Made by a program: the position numbers and the translations under genes | The notes under the pieces: generated by a model | The model's database searches: none | What the model was told of the DNA's origin: nothing | What the model saw: the letters and a program-made list of their open reading frames with translations, nothing else | Assembly (NCBI GenBank): GCA_016871255.1 | Contig: VFZH01000029.1 | Coordinates: 1-32,556 of the forward strand | DNA: 32,556 nucleotides | DNA from: Acidimicrobiia bacterium | Lineage (GTDB): Bacteria > Acidobacteriota > Vicinamibacteria > Vicinamibacterales > UBA2999 | Direction of reading: 5' to 3' | Part shown: one piece after another, positions 7,041 to 30,194 of the stretch | Position numbering within the stretch: the stretch's first letter is position 1 | How the letters are laid out: each line of letters opens with the position of its first letter

Positions 7041-8420
7041 TCACCCCGACTGCGCCAGGCCCCGTTCGCGCGACCGCGACGACGTGCGCCCGGTGCGATG
7101 GCAGATCAGCGCCACGAGCAGTGCGAACAGCATGGCGTTGGCCGGCATCCGCAGCGCGGAATCGGACAGGCACTGTACGGCGACCCCGGCGACCGCGGAC
7201 AGCGCGGCCACCCGGATCCAGACGATCTGCGACAGGTCGGACTGCAGGCGGACCAGGGCGAGCCGGCCGGCGGCGACCATGGCCAGCAGGGCCGGCACCA
7301 CGAGCAGCAGTCCTCCTTCCGCCGCCAGCTGCACGTATTCGCTGTGGGCTTCGTTGAAGAGCACCCGCCGTTCGGCACGCTGGTATCGGAGCATCGCGTG
7401 CGCGTAGGTGCCGGCGCCGGTGCCGGTCAGCGGGAAGTCACGCAGGATCGGGACGGTGTCGTGCCACACGGCCGATCGCGCAAGGGCTCCGCTGCCCGGA
7501 GTGAAACGATCGACGAGCGCCCCCACGTTGGCCCACACGCCGGCGGCGAGCAGGGCCGCCAGGAAGAGGAGTGACAGGCGAAGGCCGCGCCCCGAGCGGG
7601 CGCGCGGCTTCGACAGCATGACCCATGCCGCGGCGGTGACCATCAGCCCGAGGATGGCGCCGCGCGACGTGGACGCGATCAGCGTCAGCCAGATGAGGCC
7701 CGCGGCGCCGGCCAGGAAGATGCCGGTGCCGTCGGCCAGCAGGTCGCGCACCCGGTAGCGGAGGGCACGGCGCTCGATCACGCGGTGGACCGCAAAGTGC
7801 GCAACGGCGGCTCCCGCCACCACCGCTCCCGCCATCAGCAGCCACATCGCGAAGTGATTGCGGTTCACGAAGGGACCGAAGGGGCGGCCGCCCGGGTCGA
7901 TCGGCTCCCAGATCCAGAGAAGCAGGTTCGGCGCCGTGGCGCGCTGCGCCAGGCCGACGAGTGCGCCGATCAGGCCACTCCACGCGAGCACGCGCGTGGT
8001 CAGCCGCACGCCGCCGTGGCGGGTGAAGACGGCGCTCGCCGCCCAGTACAGGAAGACGACGGATGCGGCCGACCCGAAGGTCTCACGGGACGCGGCCGGG
8101 TGGATGCTCAGCGTCCGCCACGCGCTCCCCGCGTCCAGGCTCAGCGCGGCCTGGAGGACGGCGGACCCGGGCGAGAGGGCGGCGACCAGTGTCGCGGGGA
8201 GCGGCACGATCTGGAGCGCCATGGCGCAGAGAAACGCGACGAGCGCGACGTCGAGCCGCCGGGCGTCGCCTCGCGCGCCGATCCGCGCACCGCTCAGCAG
8301 CAACGCGGCGGACGAGGCGGCCAGCAGCGGCAGCACGGACGAGGAGTAGGCGCCACCCAGCGCGGCGAACGCGCCGACCGGGACGGCGACCACCACGAGC
8401 GGCAGCAGACGATCGCGCAT
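7041..8420 (-). CDS. O-antigen ligase / polymerase family membrane protein
   Basis: 459 residues with about ten to twelve predicted membrane helices starting at residue 5. The Wzy_C-type core LTLIASTSRGAILGLMVTA holds the conserved SRG motif. A periplasmic loop before the late helices contains GTGAGTYAHAMLRYQ and NEAHSEYVQLAAEGGLLL, typical of O-antigen ligase/Wzy proteins (PF04932). These proteins join or polymerise undecaprenyl-linked glycans on the periplasmic side of the inner membrane. Downstream of a Wzc-like kinase, a role in exopolysaccharide polymerisation or attachment is likely; ligase and polymerase cannot be told apart by sequence. The ATG at 8420 lies 263 bp after the kinase stop, and an inverted-repeat element lies between them. 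Confidence 0.85.
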   Translation of the reverse strand: MRDRLLPLVVVAVPVGAFAALGGAYSSSVLPLLAASSAALLLSGARIGARGDARRLDVALVAFLCAMALQIVPLPATLVAALSPGSAVLQAALSLDAGSAWRTLSIHPAASRETFGSAASVVFLYWAASAVFTRHGGVRLTTRVLAWSGLIGALVGLAQRATAPNLLLWIWEPIDPGGRPFGPFVNRNHFAMWLLMAGAVVAGAAVAHFAVHRVIERRALRYRVRDLLADGTGIFLAGAAGLIWLTLIASTSRGAILGLMVTAAAWVMLSKPRARSGRGLRLSLLFLAALLAAGVWANVGALVDRFTPGSGALARSAVWHDTVPILRDFPLTGTGAGTYAHAMLRYQRAERRVLFNEAHSEYVQLAAEGGLLLVVPALLAMVAAGRLALVRLQSDLSQIVWIRVAALSAVAGVAVQCLSDSALRMPANAMLFALLVALICHRTGRTSSRSRERGLAQSG

Positions 8421-8526
8421 CCCGCTACCGGGGCATCGCGTCTGACGGGGCTGCCTGCACTGCTGTCGGGTCCGTGGTGCCGCCGCCGGGGCTGGTGCCG
8501 TCCTCGGGATTCACCGGCGGACTAAG

Positions 8527-8682
8527 GGCCCTGGCCGGAATAAGGTTGCCGACTCCCGGGCGGCGAGGCGCCCGGATCGCCAGGCGCGAGGCGGGAGCAG
8601 GCCGGGTGCCTGTGACCGACGAGCAACGCCGCGAGGCGGGATGCATCGTCGGGCGAGATGGCAACCTTATTCCGGCCAGGGC
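8527..8682. repeat. Inverted-repeat element between kinase and ligase genes
   Basis: Arms at about 8528-8550 and 8660-8682 are perfect inverted copies for 23 bp around the core CCTTATTCCGGCC, with further partial matching outside. They enclose about 109 bp of GC-rich sequence with no convincing ORF. One arm begins 1 nt from the kinase stop codon. The gene-free stretch 8421-8683 is otherwise empty. It may be a small non-autonomous element or a long-stem RNA structure that separates expression of the two genes. It is a single copy in this window. Confidence 0.7.
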
Positions 8683-8683
8683 G

Positions 8684-11011
8684 CTAACTGGCCGCCTGCG
8701 AGTCTGCGTAGTAGCTGCGGAAGTGCTGGCCGTAGTAGCGGGAGTAGTAGTAGCGGTTCGAATCCGTGTCCACCCGGTTCAGGATCGCGCTCACGGACCT
8801 GGGCCGGCCCGCCTGCAGGGTGTCGATCGCCCGCTCCGCGAGCCGCCAGCGGGTCATCTCGGCGCCGAGCACGAAGGTGACGCCCGCGACGGATGGGGCG
8901 AGGATCACCGCGTCGGTGACGGCCAGCACGGGCGGCGTGTCGATGATGATCCAGGCGAAGGGACCCGTCTCGAGCTGCCTCAGGAACCGCTTCATCGTGT
9001 CCGAGGCCAGCAGCTCGGACGGGTTCGGCGGCGTCGCGCCGCCGGTGATCACGAGCAGGTTCTGGTCGGGCGAGTTGCGGACGACGTCGCGCATCTTCGC
9101 CTGCCCCGACAGCAGGTGCGACAGCCCCTTGTCGTTGGTGAGATTGAACTGCTTGTGCACGCTGGGACGCCGCATGTCGGCGTCGATCAGCAGGACCCGC
9201 GAGCCGCCGATTGCCAGCGCCAGCGCCACGTTCACCGCCGTCGTCGTCTTGCCCTCGAGCGGTTGGGCGCTGGTGAACACCTGGATGTGTGCGTGCTGCC
9301 CGGCGTGGCTCAGCACCAGCGCCGTGCGCAGGGCGCGGAACGCTTCGCCGAAGTCGTGCGGGACCGGTCCCGACAGCATCGGATTGCGTCCCCCGCGCAC
9401 CTTCGGCACCAGACCCAGGTAGTTGAGCTTGAGGCGCCACGTGATGTCTTCGGGCGTCTTGACCGTGTCGTCCAGGTAGTCGATCGCGAACGCGGCGCCA
9501 ATGCCAAGGCCCAGGCCGAGCATCAGCGCCATCATCCAGGCGCGCCGCGTATCCGGTGTGAAGGGCCCTCCCGGTACCCGCGCGCGATCGAGGAGACGGA
9601 CGTTGTTCGCCCGGCTGTTGCCGACCACGCGAAGCTCCTGCAGCCGGGCCAGCAGCGAGTCGTAGATCTGGCGATCGCTCTCGGCCTGCCGCAGCAGCAC
9701 CGAGTAGTCGACGCTCTTGCGTCCCAGGTCCTCCACGGCGCCCTTCTGCTGATCGAGGTCGCGGGTGAGCGACCGCTCCTCGGCGAGCGCCGCTTCGTAG
9801 TCGTTCCGGATGGCATCGACCGTGCGATCCACCTCGGCGTCGATCTGGCGCTCGGTGTCGGCGATCTGGCTGTCCACGCGCAGGATCTCCGGGTGCATCT
9901 CGCCGTAGCGCTCGGAGAGCCGGGCCTTGTCGCGTCGCAGCTCCGCCAGCCGCGCCCGCAGGTTCTGGATCAGCGGGTTCTGGACGATCGCGGTCAACGA
10001 CTCGCGATCCCGCGCGTTGGCCACCTGGTTGTACATCGTCTCGCGCTGGATGCGCGTCGTCCGCGCCAGCGTGACCGCGTCGTTCAACTGGTTCAGACGG
10101 GACACGACGATGTTCTGTCGATCGTCGAGCGACACCGCGTCGCGCGTCTCGCGGTAATCGGCGAGCAGGCGCTCGCTCTCCTGCACCTTCGCCTGCTGGC
10201 GCGCGACCTCCTGCTCGAGGAAGTCGAGATCCTTGTTGGTATTCTGCAGGCGGAAGTCGAGGTTCTGCGCGACGTACTCCTCGGCCAGCACGTTCGCCGC
10301 GCGGGCCGCGAATTCGGGGTCCGCGGACACGAACGAGACGTCCACCAGCCGGCTGCTGGGCACCGGCTCGACGTCCACGCGGGCGAGAAACGCATCGACC
10401 AGACCGCTCGTGTCGTCGTCTTCGGGCGCCGTGTCCTCGCCGGGGGCGGACTCGGGCTCCGGATCGAGGGCGAGTTCGGCTTCCTCGTCACCGGGGTCCT
10501 CGCCGCCAGTGAACGGGGCCAGGAGCGCCGCCTTGATCGCGCCGGTGATCTGCGACAGCTTCGTCGGCGTGGCGCCCGTGCCGTTGAACTCGGGCACGGC
10601 GGCCAGACTGAGGCGCTTGACCGCGCGCCGCCCCAGATCGCGTCCCTGCAAAATGCGGTACTGGGTGTTGTAATACGCGTCCGGATCCTGCGCGTAGTAC
10701 GACTCCCGCAGGTTCGCCACGTCGGCGGTGTACTCCTCTTCGATGTGAAGCCGCGCAGACGCCTGGTACATCGGCGTCGTCGTGTAGGTCTGGTACATCA
10801 TCCCCGACACGACCAGCACGAAGATGATGAGTACGATCTTGTGGTACTTGAGAACGACGGCGAGGCGGTCGAAGAGGTGCACCTGGCGGGATGGGCCGGA
10901 AAGGGGCCGTCCCGGCGCAGGTGCCGGTGCGCCGGTCCGGGCGGCCTCCAGATGCGTCGACGTCTCCGGCGACACGCTACCTGCGGGGTGAGAGTGTGGC
11001 GGCTGGTTCAT
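8684..11011 (-). CDS. Polysaccharide biosynthesis tyrosine autokinase (Wzc-like, chain-length determinant fused to BY-kinase)
   Basis: 775 residues. Domain order: a cytoplasmic Pro-rich N-terminus; TM1 (IVLIIFVLVVSGMMY, about 56-70) leading into a Wzz domain; a long coiled coil (about 260-440); a GNVR-type region (SRANNVRLLDRARVP) and TM2 (MMALMLGLGLGIGAAFAI); then the CpsD/CapB ATPase domain. Walker A is LEGKTTTA with Lys588, Walker A' is LLIDADMRRP, and IIIDTPPVL follows. The C-terminus carries a Tyr cluster (YYYSRYYGQHFRSYY) expected to be autophosphorylated. It would control export and chain length of an exopolysaccharide. An Asp/Glu-rich insert (PEPESAPGEDTAPEDDD) sits in the periplasmic loop. 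The start overlaps the end of the upstream gene by 35 bp, so the two are probably co-transcribed. Confidence 0.93.
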   Translation of the reverse strand: MNQPPHSHPAGSVSPETSTHLEAARTGAPAPAPGRPLSGPSRQVHLFDRLAVVLKYHKIVLIIFVLVVSGMMYQTYTTTPMYQASARLHIEEEYTADVANLRESYYAQDPDAYYNTQYRILQGRDLGRRAVKRLSLAAVPEFNGTGATPTKLSQITGAIKAALLAPFTGGEDPGDEEAELALDPEPESAPGEDTAPEDDDTSGLVDAFLARVDVEPVPSSRLVDVSFVSADPEFAARAANVLAEEYVAQNLDFRLQNTNKDLDFLEQEVARQQAKVQESERLLADYRETRDAVSLDDRQNIVVSRLNQLNDAVTLARTTRIQRETMYNQVANARDRESLTAIVQNPLIQNLRARLAELRRDKARLSERYGEMHPEILRVDSQIADTERQIDAEVDRTVDAIRNDYEAALAEERSLTRDLDQQKGAVEDLGRKSVDYSVLLRQAESDRQIYDSLLARLQELRVVGNSRANNVRLLDRARVPGGPFTPDTRRAWMMALMLGLGLGIGAAFAIDYLDDTVKTPEDITWRLKLNYLGLVPKVRGGRNPMLSGPVPHDFGEAFRALRTALVLSHAGQHAHIQVFTSAQPLEGKTTTAVNVALALAIGGSRVLLIDADMRRPSVHKQFNLTNDKGLSHLLSGQAKMRDVVRNSPDQNLLVITGGATPPNPSELLASDTMKRFLRQLETGPFAWIIIDTPPVLAVTDAVILAPSVAGVTFVLGAEMTRWRLAERAIDTLQAGRPRSVSAILNRVDTDSNRYYYSRYYGQHFRSYYADSQAAS

Positions 11012-28889: not shown

Positions 28890-30194
28890 CTAAGGAGTCC
28901 GATCGAAATTAGATGATCAAGTTGATCGAGGGCGGAGTTCATAGTTCCAGTCGCCGTGGAACGCATGGCGATGAAGCGCCAGCTGGCGCATCTCGGCGGC
29001 GGTGACCACCACGCCGGTCTTGTAGCGTCGTTTATCGAGCTTGGCCTTGACGCGCAAGCCAGCGGCTGTGCGCGTGTGCCCGATCAACTCGACGACGGTC
29101 TCGAAGGTCCGGAGCGGGCGACCGCGCCAGTTCTGCGTGATGTGGCAGAACAGACGATGCTCGACCTTGTTCCACTTGCTCGTGCCGGGAGGGAAATGCG
29201 AGACGTGGATGGTGATCCGCAGGTCGTCCGCGAGGCGCTGAAGTGCCAGCTTCCAGCCGCGCGCCCGGTAGCCGTGACTGCCGCCCGCATCCGCGGTGAT
29301 GGAGAGGGCCTCGGCCGTCGGATACGCGCGACGGCCCATCATCGTCCACCATTGACGAATCGAGGCGACCGCAAACGCCGGCGTGTCGTGGTCGCGCCCG
29401 ACGCTGACCCACGCTTCGTTCCGCGCCATGTCGTAGACACCGTACGGCATGGCTTTACCCACCGCGTCGCCGGGGAAATCATGCACGCGCACCCGCTCGG
29501 GCGCGCCGGTGGGCTGCCACTCGCGGCCGCCGATTGTGAAATCGCCGACCAATGCCTTCTTCTTCGTGTCGACCGAGATGACCGGTTGTCCGGCGGCCAT
29601 GAATGCCGTCGCCGTCGCATTGATGTGCGCGAATTGCGCATGGCGGTCCGGGTGCGCGGCGCCTTCGCGCGCCTTCTCCAACGCATGCATCCGGTAGCCC
29701 AAGTCGCGCAGCAGCCGACCCACGGTTGTCGCGCTCACGCGAAAGCCCTGCGTCGTCAACGCGCTCGCCAGCTTCGCGGTGCTCTTGCACGTCCACCGCA
29801 ACGGCGACTCCGGATCGCCGCGCAGCAAGGGCTCGACGAGCCGATCGAGTGCTTCGGCGATGCCGGGCTGGGTGAGGTCGATGCCCGGCCGCCCCGCGCC
29901 GGCGCGACGAATCCGGTGCGATGCGGTCACCCCCGCCGCCAACTCCGCTCGTCCCGATCGGATGGTCGCACGCGCGAGGCCCGTCGCCGCCGACACCACC
30001 GAATCGCCGCCGTCACCCACCGCCACCGACTCGGCGGCCGCCCACAAGCGGCGCCCGCGCTCATCGAGCACAGCGCCCATCGTGGCCCACTTGGCCACGA
30101 GCGTCGCCTCGATCTCCGTGTCGCGCCTCACGCCACACGTGTTAGATCACAAACCGCCCCTTCTTGGCAAACTAATTTACGCGGGACGCCTTAG
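28890..30194 (-). mobile_element. Complete ISAzo13-type insertion sequence, 1305 bp
   Basis: The ends are imperfect inverted repeats of about 32 bp. The left end reads CTAAGGAGTCC, five unpaired bases, AAATTAG; the right end (minus strand) reads CTAAGGCGTCC, five bases, AAATTAG, with CAAG matching further in. GG flanks both ends and may be a 2-bp target duplication or chance. It encodes one full-length transposase on the minus strand. The right end cuts an IS110-family transposase gene. Confidence 0.8.
28917..30131 (-). CDS. ISAzo13-family DDE transposase
   Basis: 404 residues, full length. The N-terminus contains a helix-turn-helix region (ATGLARATIRSG; VSATTVGRLLRDLGYR). The catalytic residues of the DDE fold are visible: Asp188 (VISVDTKKK), Asp281 (ITADAGGSHG) and Glu324 (GTSKWNKVEHRLF). 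The start is a GTG at 30131 just inside the right terminal repeat. With both ends present and no frameshift, the element looks capable of transposition. Confidence 0.92.
   Translation of the reverse strand: MRRDTEIEATLVAKWATMGAVLDERGRRLWAAAESVAVGDGGDSVVSAATGLARATIRSGRAELAAGVTASHRIRRAGAGRPGIDLTQPGIAEALDRLVEPLLRGDPESPLRWTCKSTAKLASALTTQGFRVSATTVGRLLRDLGYRMHALEKAREGAAHPDRHAQFAHINATATAFMAAGQPVISVDTKKKALVGDFTIGGREWQPTGAPERVRVHDFPGDAVGKAMPYGVYDMARNEAWVSVGRDHDTPAFAVASIRQWWTMMGRRAYPTAEALSITADAGGSHGYRARGWKLALQRLADDLRITIHVSHFPPGTSKWNKVEHRLFCHITQNWRGRPLRTFETVVELIGHTRTAAGLRVKAKLDKRRYKTGVVVTAAEMRQLALHRHAFHGDWNYELRPRST

Follow-up and report, generated by a model that had tools for sequence, protein, structure and literature searches.

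The window, i.e., the whole 32,556-nucleotide stretch of DNA that was analysed, raises the question of what a 23-bp perfect inverted repeat is doing between the co-directional genes of a Wzc-type polysaccharide tyrosine autokinase (GNVR, AAA_31; 8684-11011, minus strand) and an O-antigen ligase-type protein (Wzy_C; 7041-8420, minus strand). A sequence-only reading had placed its arms around 109 bp and 1 nt from the kinase stop codon, which is indeed where they are: at 8528-8550 (plus strand, within the terminal inverted repeat GGGCCCTGGCCGGAATAAGGTTGCC) and 8660-8682 (minus strand), with the kinase TAG at 8684-8686. The inverted arms as a whole (8525-8555 and 8655-8685) are 31 nt long and 90% complementary. 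Chance is excluded as their origin, because only about 1e-7 perfect 23-bp inverted repeats within 200 bp are expected in 32 kb of random sequence (about 32,556 x 150 x 4^-23), and because about 50 copies are present in the same genome.

Copies, insertion sites and empty sites

The element, with class A ends, spans 8526-8684 (159 bp; the plus strand is the one on which its conserved core folds best), so that the interval first proposed (8527-8682) captured a real element but fell one to two bases short at its ends. Comparison of identical 3-bp flanks across copies places target-site duplications (TAA, without strand) at 8523-8525 and 8685-8687, which bring the total to 165 bp, and the kinase stop straddles the edge of the element and the right duplication.

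The genome from which the window comes (the “own genome” below; 3.9 Mb, 243 contigs) holds about 50 copies, of which 43 are near-complete and alignable (most 94-98% identical), in addition to about nine cut by contig ends and two interrupted by another repeat. The search gave 40 scored matches over most of the element at 93-98% identity, a count that may or may not include the window's own copy, and about 100 arm sites. Copies at L066:1090-1440 and L072:1050-1265 are broken by a few hundred bp of a repeat family (GAGAGCTGATCACGTCCCCAGAGGTGGCGACCC...). In 19 of 41 own copies the two flanks agree for 3 bp and no further (TAA/TAA in 12, TTA/TTA in six, CAA/CAA in one), and in none of the 41 do they agree over 4 bp or more, i.e., no longer direct repeat was found. 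In the remaining copies the two 3-bp flanks were unequal, mostly by one base, and are apparently decayed target duplications.

With genes called from GC3, one edge of the element lies at a stop codon in about 20 of 40 own copies, and 13 copies stand between convergent genes vs. one between divergent genes. Among background CTWAG sites outside elements (taken from 183 kb of the own genome), 4 of 23 are at stop codons and 5 of 23 in coding sequence. As about half of the copies abut a stop codon, the position 1 nt from the kinase stop corresponds to a general habit of this element family.

The orthologous junctions are empty. In the close orthologues of the kinase with a readable 3′ end, to which the comparison was restricted (L390, L392 and L393, 74-78% identity), the protein ends in ...AAS-stop and the element is missing, and a covariance model of the core (R1, see below) found none in 11 of 11 orthologous loci. 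The relatives' stop codon is thus at the same place, and since the TAG is present with or without the insertion, the kinase protein is unchanged.

The element is shorter than 500 bp, non-coding and bounded by terminal inverted repeats and a target duplication, with dispersed copies in high number and empty orthologous sites, and its genome also carries an autonomous IS whose ends nearly match. These are all features by which prokaryotic MITEs are recognized, and on the strength of these sequence features we regard it as a non-autonomous transposable element (MITE), a well-supported identification of an ordinary kind. This bears out an earlier suggestion, for which further copies and empty sites had been the proposed check.

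Candidate transposase and end classes

One intact 1.3-kb ISAzo13-family IS, identified by a DNA pattern search with the class A end, lies on contig C112 of the own genome (G000:C112), with ends CTAA-GGGCCCTGGCAGAAATTAGTTGC on one side and CAATTTCGATCGGGGCCC-TTAG on the other. These nearly match the MITE ends over about 24 nt, a good but imperfect agreement, and both share GGGCCCTGGC.G.AAT.AG.TTGC in CTAA / TTAG surroundings. The window carries an IS of the same family (28894-30190, minus strand; transposase 28917-30131, 404 aa), flanked by TAA/TTA (CTAA ... CTTAG), on which the family name rests (match to NF033519 at 541.6 bits); its ends are more diverged than those of the C112 copy and resemble the MITE ends only loosely. 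Compared with this family (NCBIfam NF033519, Pfam PF07592), the MITE thus has the end motif and surroundings of an intact own-genome copy but no transposase, the IS copies have no hairpin core inside them, and the other arm classes do not match ISAzo13. Judging from the ends, an ISAzo13-family transposase acting in trans is most likely the mobiliser of the class A MITE (i.e., the best candidate), and the TWA target duplications, together with the inverted ends, suggest DDE-type cut-and-paste movement.

An IS5/IS427-type transposase fragment at C34, suggested as parent by an adjoining class A end, was rejected: its two other copies begin at GAGCCGATCC, so that at C34 this IS must have inserted into a copy of the element. 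At this contig end (L346) the IS5-type IS sits in the arm of that copy; further copies of the IS occur at C45 and C1, the latter apparently broken.

At least six end classes were distinguished, of which A and B both occur in the own genome, and more than one class is also present within other single genomes. Classes B-F have other ends, none of them ISAzo13-like, and no complete IS with such ends was found in the fetched loci; for class D, the commonest, there was only a truncated IS in G101 (ORF start MAMGTREAEQPPLWIAT), too short to name. ISAzo13 transposases were seen in 4 of 14 host genomes (three above the curated cut-off) and in none of the other 10, so the other end classes would need other transposases. 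The own genome includes a second MITE subfamily with the same core and ends CTAGTCCTCTGGAAACGTGAT (L064:1194-1358, L223, L224 and L225). At G123:C37:74622-74667, class D ends stand face to face about 10 nt apart as apparently coreless arms, which are rare relative to core-bearing copies.

The same hairpin core between differing ends

When the whole element was used for a family search, the matches fell mostly in its interior, and in the alignment of relatives it is this interior that is conserved; the outer arms are of other sequence, yet nearly always inverted repeats in CTAG or CTWAG-like surroundings. Identity between elements is 73% for the core vs. 55% for the left arm (47% for a shuffled arm), and left and right arms match at 72% within an element vs. 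51% across elements. Own copies deviate from their consensus by 1.6% in the core vs. about 3.4% in the arms. The sequence-only reading had staked itself on further copies and on conserved arms, and it stands: copies are numerous, and the arms are conserved within the own genome, though between genomes it is the enclosed core that is conserved instead. Likewise, the 109 bp described as lacking a gene have no gene assigned (nor does the rest of the 159 bp) but contain the most conserved part of the element.

This 96-nt core (8557-8652, plus strand; 96 bits with model R1) is one long imperfect hairpin with three tandem G.A motifs, which are spaced by one and two covarying Watson-Crick pairs (C/G, G/C and A/U; CC/GG, GG/CC and GC/GC). 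The consensus reads GGCGAGGCGCCCGG.TGGC.AGGCGCGA N GA NN GA on the 5′ side, then a hairpin, and GA NN GA N GAGCAACGC.GCCAG.CGGGATGC on the 3′ side. Several genomes have a GC-rich hairpin of about 50 nt (GGGGnCCCC.CGCGC...GCGCGGTGGGGTGG) within the 3′ half of the core (L229, L253, L259, L264, L315 and L329; L144 and L151 in G031); this insertion may be another very small element that always targets the same site, or else an arm of variable form.

Across 34 cores, 92.5% of pair cells were paired, compensatory cells (i.e., changed on both sides) numbered 106 vs. 35.4 in shuffled alignments (0 of 500), and covariation was 0.321 vs. 0.123. For 112 elements of several phyla, these values were 90.3% paired, 593 vs. 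175 compensatory cells, and covariation of 0.493 vs. 0.143 (slid controls ≤0.062), in an alignment that was fitted to the model and whose loci were picked by a pattern fixing the central motifs; most compensatory changes lie in the outer helices, which this pattern left free. Kinship among the sequences inflates the counts of compensatory cells in tree-free statistics of this kind. That the core occurs in at least four phyla between differing ends suggests natural selection for its fold.

With RNA parameters, 114 of 133 distinct cores fold better on the plus strand; with DNA parameters, 119 of 133 do. Two helix positions are mostly G.U (69 of 108 and 79 of 108) and never A.C, and outside these fixed positions the wider set contained 88 G.T vs. 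65 A.C cells, a modest asymmetry; among own copies the strand asymmetry is absent. These fold predictions indicate that one strand is folded, and fit RNA or DNA alike.

Model R1 (E ≤ 1e-4) matched 88 of 162 genomes within the window's order, Vicinamibacterales, and, in an even sample of 396 genomes from its phylum, taken to be Acidobacteriota, 57. An exact pattern was found at 118 or more loci in GTDB contigs, and the matches listed were mostly Acidobacteria, with Elusimicrobia, Myxococcales and Thermodesulfobacteriota/Deltaproteobacteria, as well as single MAGs labelled Gemmatimonadetes, PVC, Lewinella and Alphaproteobacteria, which may be binning errors. Contamination is argued against for the Elusimicrobia and Thermodesulfobacteriota copies by their distinctive arms and composition, and the core is present in at least four bacterial phyla. 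Three Elusimicrobia elements (L232:31-239, L310:4186-4393 and L341:5551-5758) each contain two inverted cores, hit by the model on opposite strands 10-15 nt apart. As for other carriers, no exact match was found in IMG/VR viruses, and plasmids gave no more than a 38-nt match within a Burkholderia gene, which we attribute to chance.

No Rfam 15 family matched at or above its gathering score in the window, in 15 relatives' loci or in short stretches of Thermodesulfobacteriota and Elusimicrobia loci, which led us to reject a known RNA family as the identity of the core. The string GGAGCAACGCCGC, found in papers matched by words from the core, is presumably 16S rRNA sequence. Nothing relevant on MITEs with covarying RNA structure came from the literature searched, whose coverage leaves out most subscription papers.

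The element is like the IS-moved MITEs Chunjie, Correia elements and RUP (PMC10969869) in being short and gene-free, with terminal inverted repeats, target duplications, tens of intergenic copies and a stable hairpin (stable hairpins being described in that review of prokaryotic MITEs), and unlike them in that its interior is conserved across several phyla and its ends exchanged. Chunjie of Geobacter uraniireducens, for which operon insertion is given in a title cited there, is likened to it by description only, both being reported inside an operon. The review includes no comparable conserved core and no mention of Acidobacteria or ISAzo13 (PMC10969869).

Possible roles of the core

We give a probability of roughly 0.8 to the overall reading of the element as a MITE with a selected core. 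The MITE would have been inserted at the kinase stop codon by an ISAzo13-family transposase acting in trans on ends GGGCCCTGGC...GAATAAG.TTGC, with the target C-TWA-G duplicated to TWA...TWA; the TAG survives this insertion, leaving the kinase C-terminus intact and the element as an untranslated spacer before the ligase. The core would be a separate module, i.e., an imperfect hairpin of about 96 nt with stacked tandem G.A motifs, selected on one strand and kept while the outer arms were replaced several times, presumably with each transposase switch. We infer that its most probable mode of action is that of a folded single strand, RNA in preference to single-stranded DNA, to which a conserved host factor binds. 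The benefit may go to the element itself, e.g., through a processed or stabilized hairpin rendering insertions behind stop codons harmless.

For a role of the core at the RNA level alone, we would put the chances somewhat short of even, and the lack of a clear orientation bias relative to flanking genes speaks against a simple cis RNA role. It is also tempting to see in the core a new class of selfish structured nucleic acid, riding several unrelated transposases in at least four phyla by changing its ends and kept through binding of the folded strand to a widely conserved host factor, a proposal that we make tentatively and with more doubt than confidence.

An unlikely but serious alternative, which departs from this explanation solely in the role of the core, is that the latter forms a hairpin of single-stranded DNA in the course of replication or transposition, and that a transposase or a replication protein recognizes this structure. 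Strand specificity with DNA parameters too, the stability of tandem G.A pairs in DNA and the shared orientation of several copies on the same contig all fit this; however, orientation relative to the replication strand by GC skew gave only a trend (p-value 0.08 for named loci, 0.02 for own copies), and the cut-and-paste route indicated by the duplicated TWA targets and inverted ends speaks against it. The same RNA-or-ssDNA question was discussed for the STAXI motif, and the candidate structured RNAs of Weinberg et al. (2010; PMC2864571), which include Acido-1 and Acido-Lenti-1, were likewise recognized by covariation and come partly from Acidobacteria, but the present element differs from them as a mobile high-copy repeat.

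It is improbable that the element is an ordinary MITE with a functionless interior, in which the core is an old passenger that seems conserved through recent spread between lineages. The copies in any one genome are young, and IS and MITEs often spread horizontally, but recent transfer would bring the arms too, conservation is higher in the core than in the arms, which a transposase must read, and between lineages the helices are preserved by compensatory changes that far exceed those in shuffled and slid controls. Moreover, the AT-rich Thermodesulfobacteriota copies retain AAGGCGCGANGANNGAG / GANNGANGAGCAACG with nearly all else changed, although the search pattern itself required both motifs. 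A cis-acting RNA regulator of the kinase–ligase operon (such as the stem tuning the ratio of the two products that the sequence-only reading had envisaged) or an intrinsic terminator is very improbable, for all the stability of the consensus fold (about -120 kcal/mol) and the position between two co-directional genes, given that orthologous junctions are without the element, that about 50 copies occupy unrelated sites, many of them gene ends, in both orientations, that the conserved folding strand is antisense to this operon, and that the window sequence has no U-tract 3′ of the hairpin. A secondary polar or stabilizing effect of the element on the ligase is possible.

Returning to the MITE with a selected core, what is new is a conserved, strand-specific hairpin core common to elements with different ends in several phyla; its function we infer. 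In the usual picture of a MITE, dispensable sequence fills the space between two ends that bind the transposase; in this family it is the interior that is conserved and the ends that can be replaced, a pattern pointing to a testable function of the interior. With the covariance model, this large family of hairpin elements, which Rfam does not annotate, can be searched for in Acidobacteriota and in other phyla, and the stop-codon habit offers a simple explanation for many of the inverted repeats found immediately behind stop codons in these genomes.
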